Shown here piece after piece: positions 23,439-53,523 of a stretch of 64,000 nucleotides of DNA (within the stretch, counting starts at the first letter, position 1; each line of letters starts with the position of its first letter). The translations under genes were made by a program, and so were the position numbers. The notes under the pieces were generated by a model. It did not search any database. It was not told where the DNA came from and saw nothing but the letters and a program-made list of their open reading frames with translations. The stretch comes from Fibrobacter sp. UWB10 (GTDB lineage: Bacteria > Fibrobacterota > Fibrobacteria > Fibrobacterales > Fibrobacteraceae): contig NZ_FXUE01000003.1 in the NCBI RefSeq assembly GCF_900182935.1, positions 62,001 through 126,000 on the forward strand, given 5' to 3'.

Positions 23439-24713
23439 TTACATGTTGCTGAAGATTTGGAATCCGCTGTAAGATTCTTGGCCGTGTTCGCTTTGGTCGA
23501 GGCCGCGGAGTTCTTGACGTTCGGTAACGCGGAGGCCCATGGTCTTCTTAATGGCGTAGAAGATGAGGCTAGCTGCACCGAAGCAGGGAACCGCGTAAGC
23601 GATCACGCCGATGGCCTGAGTGCCGAGGGTGTAGTCGCCAGTGATATCGAAGATACCGACAGCGAGCGTACCCCACACACCGTTTACCAGGTGAACCGAG
23701 AGAGCACCGACCGGGTCATCCAAGTGCAGGCGGTCGAACATGAAGACTGCACCGACTACGAGCACACCAGCGATGGCACCGATAATCCAAGAAGAAAGCG
23801 GGGAAACCACGTCTGCACCGGCAGTGATAGCGACGAGGCCTGCAAGGCAGCCGTTGAGGGCCATGGTGGCGTCCGGCTTCTTCGAAACAATCCAGCTCGT
23901 GAGCGTTGCGGTAATGATACCTGCGACAGCGGCGAGGTTCGTGGTCACGAGAATCCAGCTAGTAGCCTTCGGGTCGCCGGAGAGAGCAGAACCGGCGTTG
24001 AATCCCCACCAACCGAACCACAGCATGAACACACCGATGGTTGCGAGCGGAATGTTGTGGGCCGGAATAGCGTGCACCTTACCGCCGACATACTTACCGA
24101 TACGCGGTCCAAGGATCATGACGCCAGCGAGAGCTGCCCAACCACCCACGGAGTGAACCAGGGTAGAACCGGCGAGGTCATGGAAACCGGCCTTGCCGAT
24201 GGAAGAAAGCCAGCCACCGCCCCATGTCCAGCTACCCACGATGGGGTAGACGAAGGCCACGTAGATGATGGTGAAGACGAGGAAGGAGTTCAGCTTCACA
24301 CGTTCGGCGACAGCGCCAGAGACAATGGTAGCCGCGGTTGCTGCAAACATCGCCTGGAACAACCAGTCGGTGAAGAGGGTGAAGTGACCGTTGTAGGCGG
24401 CGGTGAACTTAGAGGGGTCAGCCCAGTCACCGATGCCGAATCCGGCAAATCCAAGTACACCGGAGATCGCGTTGAACGTTCCGGGGTACATGAGGGCAAA
24501 GCCGATGGCGGCGTACATCGTGATACCTATGGCGGGAACCGCGATGTTTTTGAAAGCGACGTTGGCCGCGCACTTGGCACGAACAAGACCCGCTTCGACA
24601 CAGGCAAAGCCCAGGCCCATGATGAACACCAGCATGGCGCTAATCATGATCCAAATGTTTTCTGTCATAAAGATGGCGTCGCTGACAGGTACGACAGTTG
24701 CTGCTTCGTTCAT
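23439..24713 (-). CDS. amtB: Ammonium transporter AmtB
   Basis: This 424-residue protein has eleven or so membrane helices and the Amt family signature: DLAGSTLVHSVGGWAAL with the first pore His (near 186), and GALSVHLVNGVWGTLAVG with the second (near 340). AmtB conducts ammonium as NH3 plus a proton through the inner membrane and is blocked by unmodified PII. It lies 31 bases downstream of glnK on the same strand, a conserved pairing, and is probably transcribed from the sigma-54 promoter upstream of glnK. A strong terminator follows. Confidence 0.97.
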   Translation of the reverse strand: MNEAATVVPVSDAIFMTENIWIMISAMLVFIMGLGFACVEAGLVRAKCAANVAFKNIAVPAIGITMYAAIGFALMYPGTFNAISGVLGFAGFGIGDWADPSKFTAAYNGHFTLFTDWLFQAMFAATAATIVSGAVAERVKLNSFLVFTIIYVAFVYPIVGSWTWGGGWLSSIGKAGFHDLAGSTLVHSVGGWAALAGVMILGPRIGKYVGGKVHAIPAHNIPLATIGVFMLWFGWWGFNAGSALSGDPKATSWILVTTNLAAVAGIITATLTSWIVSKKPDATMALNGCLAGLVAITAGADVVSPLSSWIIGAIAGVLVVGAVFMFDRLHLDDPVGALSVHLVNGVWGTLAVGIFDITGDYTLGTQAIGVIAYAVPCFGAASLIFYAIKKTMGLRVTERQELRGLDQSEHGQESYSGFQIFSNM

Positions 24714-24744: not shown

Positions 24745-25086
24745 TTATCCGATTGCCTCGGGGCCAGTTTCGCCGGTGCGGATACGGATGCACTGTTCGA
24801 GTTCCGTGACGAAAATCTTGCCGTCGCCGATGGCGCCTGTACGTGCGCCCTTGATGATGGCGTCAATACAGGGCTTGACAAATTCGTCGTTCACTGCAAT
24901 CTTCAAACAGATCTTTTTGAGCAGATTAACCTCGGTCACCACGCCACGGAAACGTTGGTTGTAACCGCGCTGCTGACCGCAGCCAAGCACGTTCGTGACA
25001 GACATCTTGTAGATCTTGTTTTCGTAAAGTTCTTGCTTTACGATGTTTAATCGTTCGGGTTGGATGTAAGCTGTGATTAGCTTCAT
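24745..25086 (-). CDS. glnK: PII signal protein GlnK, lacking the uridylylation Tyr
   Basis: This 113-residue PII protein senses ATP/ADP, 2-oxoglutarate and nitrogen status and gates AmtB. The B-loop [14 protein letters not shown] and C-terminal IRTGETG are standard. The T-loop reads [20 protein letters not shown]: position 46 is Phe and position 51 is Thr, where canonical GlnB/GlnK has Tyr46 and the uridylylated Tyr51. Direct uridylylation by GlnD at residue 51 is therefore not possible. The gene heads the glnK-amtB operon; its ATG at 25086 lies about 35 bases from the predicted sigma-54 start site. Confidence 0.95.
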
Positions 25087-25442
25087 GTTCCTATCCTTTG
25101 TTAGGGTTTGTTTCTTGTTTTGCCCAACCTATTGCAAATGTCGTGCCAAAATTTGGAGAAAGGCGAAAAATGCCCGATTTTGATGAAAAATCACTAAAAA
25201 AGCCCCTGAAAATGAAAATGGAATGATGGGCTGGACTGCTAATCGGGGGCCGGTTACAGATTTTGCTTTTACAAATTTGGGAGAGAATTCAAATAATGTA
25301 AAGCCTGTTTTGTAAAAAACATTTTAAAGAACTTTTCTTTTGCTGTTGAATTTTGTATGCAAAAAAAGTTACATTTAGTTTGCACGTTGATTTCATAAGA
25401 AATTAACATAGAAGAACAATAACACTATTTATGGAGTTCCCT
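25087..25442. other. Intergenic region between divergent glnK and barrel gene
   Basis: No gene is seen in these 356 bases. The left part holds the glnK sigma-54 promoter; the right part holds a TACATTTAG promoter-like box at 25370-25378. The middle is AT-rich with no hairpin I could support. Confidence 0.6.
25132..25148 (-). promoter_or_regulatory. Sigma-54 promoter of glnK-amtB
   Basis: On the minus strand the sequence is TGGCACGACATTTGCAA, matching the -24/-12 consensus TGGCACG-N4-TTGCA exactly. The ATG of glnK follows 45 bases downstream of the box. No enhancer-binding site could be assigned. Confidence 0.85.
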
Positions 25443-50020: not shown

Positions 50021-52141
50021 TTAGTAAATGAACAACATTTCACGATATTTCGGCAGCGGCCACTTTTCGTCGGGCACGATGCTTTCGATCTTGTCCACGA
50101 TAATGCGGAGGTTTGCCATAGCGTCGAGAATGACTTCGTGCTTTTCGCCGAGAGCGGTTTCCATCTGGGCGACTGCGGCATCAAGTTCTTTGAGCTTTTC
50201 GCCGAGTTCGCGAGCGTAACCGTCAACTGCGTAGAAGCCCTGGCCCTTAGCTAACTCGTTGGTCTTCAATGCGTTAGTGTATGCACAGAGTACCTGCGGG
50301 AGCACCACGTTCTTCGCGATATCGAATGCAATCTTGCCTTCGATGTGAATCTTCTTGTGGTAATCTTCCATGTTGACTTCGTAACGGGAGTCGAGTTCGC
50401 GCTTGTTGAATACGCCATACTTTTCGAACAGGGCCACATTTTCCTTCTTGTTGAGAGCCTGGAGGGCTTCCATGGTGGTGCGGATGTTCGGGAGGCCGCG
50501 CTTGGCTGCTTCTTCCACCCATTCGTCGGTATAGCCGTTGCCGTTGAAGATAACGCGCTTGTGTTCCTTGACAATCTTCTGCAACAGATTCTGCAGTTCT
50601 TCGTGGAACTTGTCGGCCGGAACATTGGCGAGCTTGTCGGCGATGAGGTCGAAGGCTTCGGCCACGATCGTGTTGAGGATGACATTCGGTTCAGAGCAAC
50701 TCTGGCTAGAACCCGGAGCACGGAATTCGAACTTGTTGCCGGTGAAGGCGAACGGAGAAGTACGGTTGCGGTCGGTAGCGTCGCGGGGGAGCGGCGGGAG
50801 CGTGTCGGAACCGAGCTTCAGGGCACCGGCCTGCTTGCTGGATTTCGGATCGCCCTTTTCAAGCTGGTCGATAACGTCGGCGAGCTGGTCGCCGAGGTAC
50901 ATGGAGATGATTGCCGGAGGAGCTTCGTTGGCACCGAGACGGTGGTCGTTACCGGCGCTAGCAACAGCCATACGGAGCAAGTCGGCGTGGGTGTCGACAG
51001 CGTAGATCACAGCGCAGAGCGTGGTGAGGAAGATGGCGTTCTGGTGCGGGTCCTTGCCCGGGTTCAAGAGGTTGGTCTTGCCGTAGTTCACAGACCAGTT
51101 GTTGTGCTTACCGGAACCGTTGATGCCGGCAAACGGCTTTTCGTGCAGCAGGCAAACGAGACCGTTGCGGTCAGCAACCTGGCGGAGCACTTCCATAATC
51201 TGCATGTTGTGGTCGCAAGCGAGGTTCACTTCTTCAAACATCGGAGCAAGTTCGAACTGGGCCGGAGCGACTTCGTTGTGGCGGGTCTTTGCCGGAATGC
51301 CGAGCTTCCAGAGTTCCTTTTCCACTTCGTTCATGAAGTTCAAAATGCGTGCCGGAATGCTACCGAAGTAGTGGTCTTCCATCTGCTGGTGCTTTGCCGG
51401 AGCGGCGCCAAACAGAGTACGACCGGCCTGGTACAGGTCCGGGCGCTGCAGGTAGAAGCGCTTGTCAATCAGGAAGTATTCCTGTTCGGCACCCAAGGTA
51501 ACGGTGACCTTCTGCTGGGCAACGCCGAAGAGACCCATGAGGCGGTCGGCGGACTTCTGGAGGGCCTGAATAGAACGGAGAAGCGGAGTCTTCTTGTCCA
51601 AGGCTTCGCCAGTATAGCTACAGAAAGCGGTCGGGATGCAGAGCGTTGCACCGTTGCCGTGACGCTTGATGAAGGCCGGAGAGGTCGGATCCCAAGCGGT
51701 ATAGCCGCGGGCTTCGAAAGTAGAACGGAGGCCGCCGCTCGGGAAAGAAGATGCGTCCGGTTCGCCGACGATCAGGTTCTTGCCGCTGAAGGCGAGGATT
51801 GCCTTGCCATCTTCGGGTTCGAGGAAGGAGTCATGCTTTTCGGCGGTGGAACCGGTAAGAGGCTGGAACCAGTGAGTAAAGTGGGTGGCGCCGCGGTCGA
51901 TAGCCCACTTTTTCATGGCATGAGCAACTTCGCCAGCGATGCTCGGGTCAAGCGGTGCGCCGCCATCGATAGTGGCGAAGAGCTTCTTGCAAATGTCCTT
52001 GGGAAGATATGCGCGCATGGCCTCGGCGTTGAAGACGTCTTCGCCGTAGAAGTCGATGTTTGCGGGTGCTGCGGGAAGGTTGGCACCAGCGTTTTCGCTG
52101 GCGATTTCCTTGATAGCTTTTAATCTGTATTCGTTGCTCAT
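50021..52141 (-). CDS. glnN: Type III glutamine synthetase
   Basis: This 706-residue enzyme is the GSIII type found in Bacteroides, Fibrobacter and cyanobacteria; it makes glutamine from glutamate, ammonia and ATP. Motifs: [50 protein letters not shown] (ammonium and ATP site), [20 protein letters not shown]. There is no adenylylation Tyr loop as in GSI. A sigma-54 promoter lies 41 bases upstream, so expression probably rises on nitrogen limitation together with glnK-amtB. A 592-residue antisense frame is a shadow. Confidence 0.97.
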
Positions 52142-52181
52142 GGCAATCTCCTATTATGTTTTTTGTTTTCGGTGCCATAAA

Positions 52182-52197
52182 AGCAAAACGCGTGCCA
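52182..52197 (-). promoter_or_regulatory. Sigma-54 promoter of glnN
   Basis: On the minus strand TGGCACGCGTTTTGCT matches the TGGCACG-N4-TTGCW -24/-12 consensus. It sits 41 bases before the glnN ATG and just after the terminator of the upstream gene. Confidence 0.85.
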
Positions 52198-52204
52198 AAG
52201 TCAA

Positions 52205-52238
52205 AAAGTGGCGATTTCTTTGCAGAATCGCCATTTTT
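52205..52238 (-). terminator. Terminator between the FISUMP gene and glnN
   Basis: TGGCGATT and AATCGCCA pair around eight bases on the minus strand, followed by CTTTTTG. It insulates the glnN promoter from the upstream gene. Confidence 0.75.
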
Positions 52239-52284
52239 TAGCCTGTTACAAAAATTCGGAGTTTTTCAGAAATTGAAAAATTGT

Positions 52285-53523
52285 TTATTCGTTTACGGAA
52301 TCTGTAAAATCGGAAGGCGTCTTTTCAAAACTGGGAGGGTCGTCTGCCTGGATACAGCGGACAAAATGGTAGTTTTCGGGGCAAAGCATGGCTTCGCAAT
52401 AGTCTGCACCACCAAATCTGTAAAACCTTAAGGGCTTGACCTCGACATTGCCGTTTTCATCGGGCCAAAGGGGGATATCCTTTGCATCTGCGGTCCAGTA
52501 AGAGGCAAAAGCGAACAATTCACCGCTTTCTTCGATACATTGCTGGTCGTAATAGCGGCGTGTCAGTCTAGAAAAGTTCAGGCCGTAGACATTGGTCGGA
52601 TAAAAGAATTCTTCGACGTCGGTCTTGAGGGCAGGATCGGTGCTGGATTTACCTTTTTCGTAAATCGCGTAGAATGGCTTGTGGTTTGCGGCTGAGAAAA
52701 GGTCGTCATAGGTCGCCGATGCAGGGAGCTTGTCCTTGATGCTTGCAAATTCGGCTTCGGTCGGGAGTCTCCAGCCTTCGGGGCAAATTCCGTTATCGAT
52801 GTCAGATTCCGGGTATTCTAGGCCCGCATCGATAGGCAGTCTCAAATTCGGCTTGGTGGGGTCGGCAAAGGGCCTGCTTCCGGGAGTCTTGTAGCGTAAA
52901 TCCTCCGACATCCAGGTTTGGTCGCCGATGCTGACTGTTCCGTAGATGTGTCCGTCGCGCGGGTCGGTCATTTGGCCTGCTTTTAGCTTGCGCGGGAGTC
53001 TCGGGAATCCCCAGAACTTGACTAAGGCGATGCAGAGGTCTTGATAAAGCTTGCCCGGGTAAATGCTCTCGATTTCAATGATAATCTTGTAAACGTTCTT
53101 GAGCGGTTTTTCAAAGACGATGATGTCGGGGCGATGGATCTTGTAGCCGCCCCATCTGGGTTGGGCAAGCGTGTACGACTTTACAAGATTGTCTGTGCTG
53201 TTCTGGTAAATTCGGATGTTCTGGGCGAGGCTGTAGTTCGTGTAAGACGATGAATCGCGCATGTACCCGTTATAAATGGTAATGACGTCGAGTTCCTGAG
53301 CCTCTACGAGAAATTCCAAAGTGATGGGCTTGTTATTGAACTTGGCTGCCCAAACCTGAAAGAACGGGTGTACGTTCTTTTTCATGATCATGTTTTCGGG
53401 GCGGTAGCTCTTTTGGCCAAGGTCAGGTAAAGTGGCAGACGCCTTGATTCCGTTTATGGGGATAGAGGTAATCGCATGAGACAAAGAAACAGCGACTAAA
53501 ACGGTAATCAAAAAACGTAACAT
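52285..53523 (-). CDS. Exported protein with discoidin/NADase-type domain and FISUMP domain
   Basis: This 412-residue protein has signal MLRFLITVLVAVSLSHAITS. Residues about 25-170 resemble the NADase-type glycan-binding (discoidin-like) domain: FQVWAAKFNNKPITLEFL, VITIYNGYMRDSSSYTNYSLAQNIRIYQN. From about residue 185 a FISUMP domain follows (MTDPRDGHIYGTVSIGDQTW, GICPEGWRLPTEAEFA, a C-terminal HFVRCIQA). The combination suggests a secreted carbohydrate-binding surface protein; the ligand is unknown. It is a single gene with its own terminator. Confidence 0.75.
   Translation of the reverse strand: MLRFLITVLVAVSLSHAITSIPINGIKASATLPDLGQKSYRPENMIMKKNVHPFFQVWAAKFNNKPITLEFLVEAQELDVITIYNGYMRDSSSYTNYSLAQNIRIYQNSTDNLVKSYTLAQPRWGGYKIHRPDIIVFEKPLKNVYKIIIEIESIYPGKLYQDLCIALVKFWGFPRLPRKLKAGQMTDPRDGHIYGTVSIGDQTWMSEDLRYKTPGSRPFADPTKPNLRLPIDAGLEYPESDIDNGICPEGWRLPTEAEFASIKDKLPASATYDDLFSAANHKPFYAIYEKGKSSTDPALKTDVEEFFYPTNVYGLNFSRLTRRYYDQQCIEESGELFAFASYWTADAKDIPLWPDENGNVEVKPLRFYRFGGADYCEAMLCPENYHFVRCIQADDPPSFEKTPSDFTDSVNE

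Follow-up and report, generated by a model that had tools for sequence, protein, structure and literature searches.

The glutamine synthetase type III (GSIII) gene glnN1 of Fibrobacter sp. UWB10 probably belongs, together with gltB, glnK-amtB, urtA, purF, dapF and the gene of the activator itself, to a sigma-54 nitrogen-assimilation regulon under the control of a one-component NifA-like activator. From the sequences, we put the probability of this reading at roughly 0.78. The promoters, the paired upstream boxes, their conservation among relatives, the gene neighbourhoods and the domain make-up of the candidate activator were observed directly. The window referred to below is the whole stretch of 64,000 nucleotides that was analysed; the genome (3.48 Mb in 10 contigs) was covered by pattern searches and targeted stretches.

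The sigma-54 promoter of glnN1

The following features were found at glnN1 in the window.

50021..52141, minus strand: glnN1, glutamine synthetase type III, 706 aa (ORF and Pfam domains)
52166..52176, minus strand: GGCACCGAAAA at the expected transcription start of glnN1, kept among glnN1 orthologues
52182..52197, minus strand: sigma-54 promoter TGGCACGCGTTTTGCT of glnN1 (-24/-12), from sequence and conservation in relatives
52210..52232, no strand assigned: imperfect hairpin GGCGATTTCT...AGAATCGCC, T/A-flanked, between the boxes and the promoter, read from the sequence
52264..52278, minus strand: proximal putative enhancer box TTTCAATTTCTGAAA, 81 bp before the -24 element and 29 bp from the distal box, 16.1 bits
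52293..52307, minus strand: distal putative enhancer box TTACAGATTCCGTAA, 110 bp before the -24 element, 17.6 bits, reached in 0 of 400 shuffles

The initial annotation had placed a sigma-54 promoter before glnN, and this was borne out: the site at 52182-52197 (minus strand; agcaaaacgcgtgcca when read on the plus strand) has the exact GG-N10-GC spacing of a -24/-12 promoter, and the glnN1 ATG lies 40 nt 3' of its end. The ORF at 52141-50021 (minus strand) was identified as GSIII by profile search, with matches to PF12437 GSIII_N (E=3e-76), Gln-synt_C and Gln-synt_C-ter. When TGGCAC-N5-TTGCW was searched with no mismatch, the 64-kb window held two matches, the glnN1 site and 25133-25148 (minus strand) before glnK, so that the same promoter class is present at glnK-amtB, as had been claimed. 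When two mismatches were allowed, no clear enrichment was seen in the window (45 matches compared to 34.8 expected; 6 of 100 shuffles reached 45). Since this count is near chance, the exact form alone is informative.

Around the expected transcription start, about 8-20 nt past the -12 element, a G-rich and then A-rich stretch (about GGGCG-AAAA) was noticed; a similar stretch is present at most of 14 promoter-like sites, in the nitrogen and chaperone sets alike. An RNA hairpin in the 40-nt glnN1 leader was not significant (z -0.77). The hairpin at 52210..52232 is possibly the terminator of the gene upstream of glnN1; a consensus terminator scan made no call there, and a resembling hairpin occurs in the closest relatives (L031-L033). 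The neighbouring protein, encoded at 52285-53523 of the window, joins a Fib_succ_major domain (PF09603) to a NADase_transloc domain (PF25302).

Sigma-54 sites across the genome and in relatives

The genome scan proposed with the initial annotation gave 18 exact TGGCAC-N5-TTGCW sites, compared to 7 for the reversed pattern used as control, and a plausible start codon lies 5-100 bp 3' of the site in 14 of the 18. Sigma-54 sites also exceeded the control in nearly every one of 60 family relatives. A single rpoN gene is present in the genome. The nitrogen-type genes that follow exact sites are glnK-amtB, glnN1, gltB, urtA (TIGR03407 above cut-off), purF and dapF. Other sites precede genes that look like clpB, groES, dnaK, hsp20 and aspS, and further ones precede genes for an outer-membrane protein, a sigma-70-type factor and a small exported protein; the names of gltB, purF, dapF and the chaperones were assigned from N-terminal sequence. 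The sigma-70-family factor (about 270 aa) behind the site at L018:1501-1516 makes a sigma cascade possible.

The chaperone-type sites lie at 1501-1516 of L001, L007, L010 and L016 (clpB, groES, dnaK and hsp20 look-alikes), and that of dnaK is kept in 15/15 genus loci. The palindrome TGTTTC-N5-GAAACA, which is unlike the nitrogen boxes described below, occurs at dnaK and groES, which suggests a separate sigma-54 chaperone regulon. Since the same promoter class stands before chaperone genes, sharing that class is no evidence of coregulation. The earlier argument that GSIII and ammonium uptake are coregulated because both have sigma-54 promoters therefore does not stand; the coregulation itself is supported on other grounds, namely the boxes, the clustering of the activator gene with nitrogen genes and the conservation of the promoters in close relatives.

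Presence of the motif in close relatives had been set beforehand as the test of the initial annotation. The glnN1 site is kept in each of the 17 glnN1-type loci for which upstream DNA is present, the glnK site in 20/20 loci and the gltB site in 18/18 loci, G078 among the last. Among the glnN1 orthologues, which comprise genus-level loci and one member of the next family (G078), the site lies about 50-80 bp ahead of the start. L234 and G072:C46 probably represent one contig, and L234 was not treated as independent. The more distant Fibrobacterota families had no site at glnN, glnK or gltB, except for G092, in which TGGTTCGTCTTTTGCA stands ahead of glnN. Outside the phylum, strong sites were found 5' of several GSIII genes in Lentisphaeria, Kiritimatiellae, Opitutales, Akkermansiaceae and one Desulfobacterales genome.

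Fibrobacter glnN1 was closer to the GSIII of Lentisphaeria (66-68%; L242, L243 and L245) than to that of other Fibrobacterota families (52-54%). The comparison hints at transfer of the glnN1 gene, possibly together with its activator.

Paired boxes upstream of the nitrogen promoters

A 15-bp palindrome, TTACA-N5-TGTAA, was found 5' of the -24 element at the nitrogen promoters, usually in pairs 29-31 bp apart. At glnN1, the distal box overlaps the final codons of the neighbouring ORF. Boxes were present 200-50 bp upstream in 17/17 glnN, 18/18 gltB, 11/20 glnK and 0/15 dnaK loci; shuffled sequences gave means below 0.2. Paired boxes spaced by 28-32 bp occurred in 17/17, 17/18, 8/20 and 0/15 of these loci, respectively, with a modal spacing of 29-30 bp. 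The gap within the box was strictly 5, as 26 exact boxes were counted compared to none with gaps of 2-4 or 6-8.

A box matrix trained on the glnN and gltB boxes of other genomes was then applied to the 18 sites of this genome. The scores were 21.5 bits for dapF, 20.1 for gltB, 17.6 for glnN, 17.1 for purF, 16.3 for urtA and 12.8 for glnK, of which only glnK, dapF, purF and urtA are held-out promoters, the motif having been discovered on glnN and gltB. The remaining 12 sigma-54 sites scored 3.9 bits or less with the same matrix. The boxes thus very probably define, as judged from sequence, a nitrogen regulon of at least six operons, namely glnN1, gltB, glnK (weaker), urtA, purF and dapF. The initial annotation had counted two operons; both are members, and the number was too low.

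A genome-wide scan for boxes with permissive half-sites gave little excess (41 compared to 27 for the reversed pattern), and most of the permissive matches stand away from sigma-54 sites. Among 40 box neighbourhoods that were checked, just one weak neighbour (12.7 bits) was found beyond glnN, gltB, dapF and purF, and no members were added.

The glnK-amtB operon has the following features in the window.

23439..24713, minus strand: amtB, ammonium transporter (PF00909), TIGR00836 above cut-off
24745..25086, minus strand: glnK, P-II protein (PF00543), 113 aa, profile match
25133..25148, minus strand: sigma-54 promoter TGGCACGACATTTGCA of glnK-amtB, 46 bp before glnK, kept in 20/20 genus loci
25287..25301, minus strand: degenerate putative enhancer box TTACATTATTTGAAT of glnK, 153 bp before the -24 element, 12.8 bits, p 0.015-0.03

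In UWB10 and several other genomes, the boxes at glnK are weak. Since the box of UWB10 is degenerate, the link between glnN and glnK is weaker here than that among glnN, gltB and dapF.

A candidate NifA-like activator

The candidate activator is encoded at C2:493154-494677 (508 aa) and consists of a GAF domain, an AAA+ domain with intact GAFTGA and a Fis-type HTH. It has no receiver domain and hence does not qualify as an NtrBC-type activator. Six other strong genes for enhancer-binding proteins (EBPs) are present in the genome, which makes seven in all. The activator gene follows dapF and its sigma-54 promoter, which carries two perfect boxes; this promoter and its box pair are kept in 5/5 relative loci scored. 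Orthologues of the activator adjoin glnK-amtB in G061, G063, G067 and G072 and glnN/gltB in G046 and G078, and in L235 the orthologue stands together with all of these genes. Several relatives have glnN and gltB side by side in divergent orientation, with a common upstream region. In the outgroup G092, a related EBP, a sigma-54 site, glnN, amtB and glnK follow one another, and in the Lentisphaeria locus L245 an EBP 58% identical to the activator precedes glnN with a sigma-54 site.

GAFTGA was present in every activator orthologue read. Among solved structures, the activator is closest to NifA (9qq6, a full-length match) and to the GAF domains of Aquifex Nlh1/Nlh2 (E about 1e-15); against the curated NifA model, it scored 462.5 bits, which is below the cut-off of 528.85. 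It was absent from some incomplete genomes that keep glnN or glnK (e.g., G074, 81% complete). Its identity as the regulator of these promoters is that of a candidate, resting on neighbourhood and on the similarity of its HTH to that of the EBP adjoining the second GSIII gene. A further GAF-type EBP, at L024:913-2439, has GALVGV replacing GAFTGA and is probably not a sigma-54 activator; most relatives have orthologues of it, with about 42% identity to the nitrogen activator.

Proposed mechanism

RNA polymerase with sigma-54 would wait at the -24/-12 site, and dimers of the NifA-like activator would bind the two TTACA-N5-TGTAA boxes, which are about three helical turns apart. Once assembled, the bound dimers would reach the promoter through a DNA loop and use ATP hydrolysis to open it. 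Nitrogen limitation would be what switches the activator on. Since its gene lies behind the dapF promoter with two perfect boxes, the activator probably amplifies its own synthesis by autoregulation.

Residue 51 of GlnK, numbered by eye against the E. coli PII, is taken to be Thr rather than Tyr, and classical GlnK uridylylation is therefore unlikely. No PF08335 match, and thus no GlnD, was found in the genome. Because GlnD was not found and GlnK is without Tyr51, the nitrogen signal would most likely be read by the GAF domain, through binding of 2-oxoglutarate and/or GlnK; we infer this mode of sensing by analogy with NifA and AnfA.

Alternative explanations

Control of glnK/amtB usually falls to NtrC, and the boxes could be read by a different EBP, for example the NtrC-like proteins L021 or L022 with a receiver-type N-terminus, as part of a hidden NtrBC-type system. 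L021 does match a receiver domain weakly, and among curated families it comes closest to NtrC (351 bits). However, its receiver match is below the Response_reg cut-off and L022 has none, and both proteins score far under the ntrC cut-off (558.6). Moreover, the EBP that adjoins the nitrogen genes in many relatives is of the GAF type, two perfect boxes mark the promoter ahead of it, and the GlnD expected of such a system was not found. We therefore regard this explanation as improbable. Considerably less credible is the view that the sigma-54 promoter class is itself the regulon and that every such promoter is coregulated. One sigma factor is common to all the sites, and loss of rpoN would affect them all; nevertheless, chaperone and other genes have equally good sites without nitrogen boxes, dnaK and groES carry their own palindrome, and the genome holds several EBPs.

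It could also be supposed that the NifA-like protein is a regulator of nitrogen fixation, the assimilation boxes being secondary or those of another factor. NifA is indeed the best relative of the activator, but TTACA-N5-TGTAA is unlike the classical NifA site, TGT-N10-ACA, the score falls under the curated NifA cut-off, and the neighbours are glnN, gltB, glnK and dapF. No nif gene was recognised at the sigma-54 sites examined. Although nifHDK is present in F. succinogenes, the distribution of nif across the phylum is patchy and its acquisition recent (both PMC4704652), whereas the activator, boxes and promoters are genus-wide. We give this supposition very little credence, and a one-component activator of nitrogen assimilation is the reading that we prefer.

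A second GSIII gene

Two glutamine synthetase genes were found in the genome, glnN1 and glnN2, both of the GSIII type; glnN2 (L189:3809-5926) is 80% identical to glnN1. No convincing sigma-54 site directed at glnN2 was seen in L189, L047-L053 or L236-L241, and the gene appears to stand apart from the nitrogen regulon described above. A pair of TTACA-N4-TGTAA boxes, 28-29 bp apart, was present at glnN2 in 12/13 loci, and the exact N5 box in none of the 13. The gene adjoins an EBP paralogue whose HTH region shares 28/60 residues with that of the activator, the most among the EBPs of this genome. The glnN2-linked EBP has GAFIGA in this genome and in two F. succinogenes bins, and GAFTGA elsewhere; replacement of the Thr of GAFTGA mostly abolishes sigma-54 activation (PMC3162934).

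A broader reading, to which we would give somewhat less than even odds, may be drawn from these sequences. A single NifA-like activator would replace NtrBC-GlnD, and the two GSIIIs would be split by a one-base difference in box spacing (N5 or N4), paralogous activators discerning identical half-sites by the gap alone. The module of sigma-54, GSIII and GAF-type activator may be common to Lentisphaeria (L245). The contrast between glnN1 and glnN2 makes a natural experiment on site discrimination by paralogous activators.

The analysis offers for Fibrobacter, a rumen cellulose degrader, a predicted nitrogen regulon of at least six target operons, with a candidate activator and a defined predicted binding site. 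The findings suggest that sigma-54 nitrogen control can run without NtrBC and GlnD, and they caution that membership of the sigma-54 class alone is no proof of coregulation. In the open literature, with most subscription papers lying beyond the search, nothing specific on nitrogen regulation or sigma-54 regulons in Fibrobacter and no regulon study for the phylum was found.

Comparison with known systems

It is well established that the enterobacterial NtrC regulon (glnAp2, glnK-amtB) uses sigma-54 promoters, has glutamine synthetase and glnK-amtB as targets, and employs palindromic enhancers in pairs, spaced by about 30 bp and located some 100 bp upstream. The Fibrobacter promoters are alike in all these respects. 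The differences are that the putative activator is of the GAF type without a receiver domain, that no GlnD was found and GlnK is without Tyr51, that the target is GSIII instead of GSI, that the box is TTACA-N5-TGTAA, and that gltB, urtA, purF and dapF are added to the targets.

Compared with NifA and AnfA, the proteobacterial nif activators, the candidate has the same domain order and matches 9qq6 over its full length; however, it scores under the NifA cut-off, is associated, at the sites examined, with assimilation genes instead of nif, and would bind another box sequence. An action of PII on AnfA, possibly via the GAF domain, has been proposed (PMC12093980). Nlh1 and Nlh2 of Aquifex aeolicus are likewise GAF-AAA+-HTH sigma-54 activators, for which the likeness is a GAF-domain comparison with another phylum, and Nlh1 is thought to serve nitrogen assimilation, not fixation (PMC9866876). 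Sigma-54 control of chaperone genes has been described in Bacteroidota and Planctomycetota, Fibrobacter being absent from the main text of that study (PMC12316311). Sigma-54 sites stand at dnaK, groES, hsp20 and clpB here too; their different palindrome points to another circuit than the nitrogen regulon.
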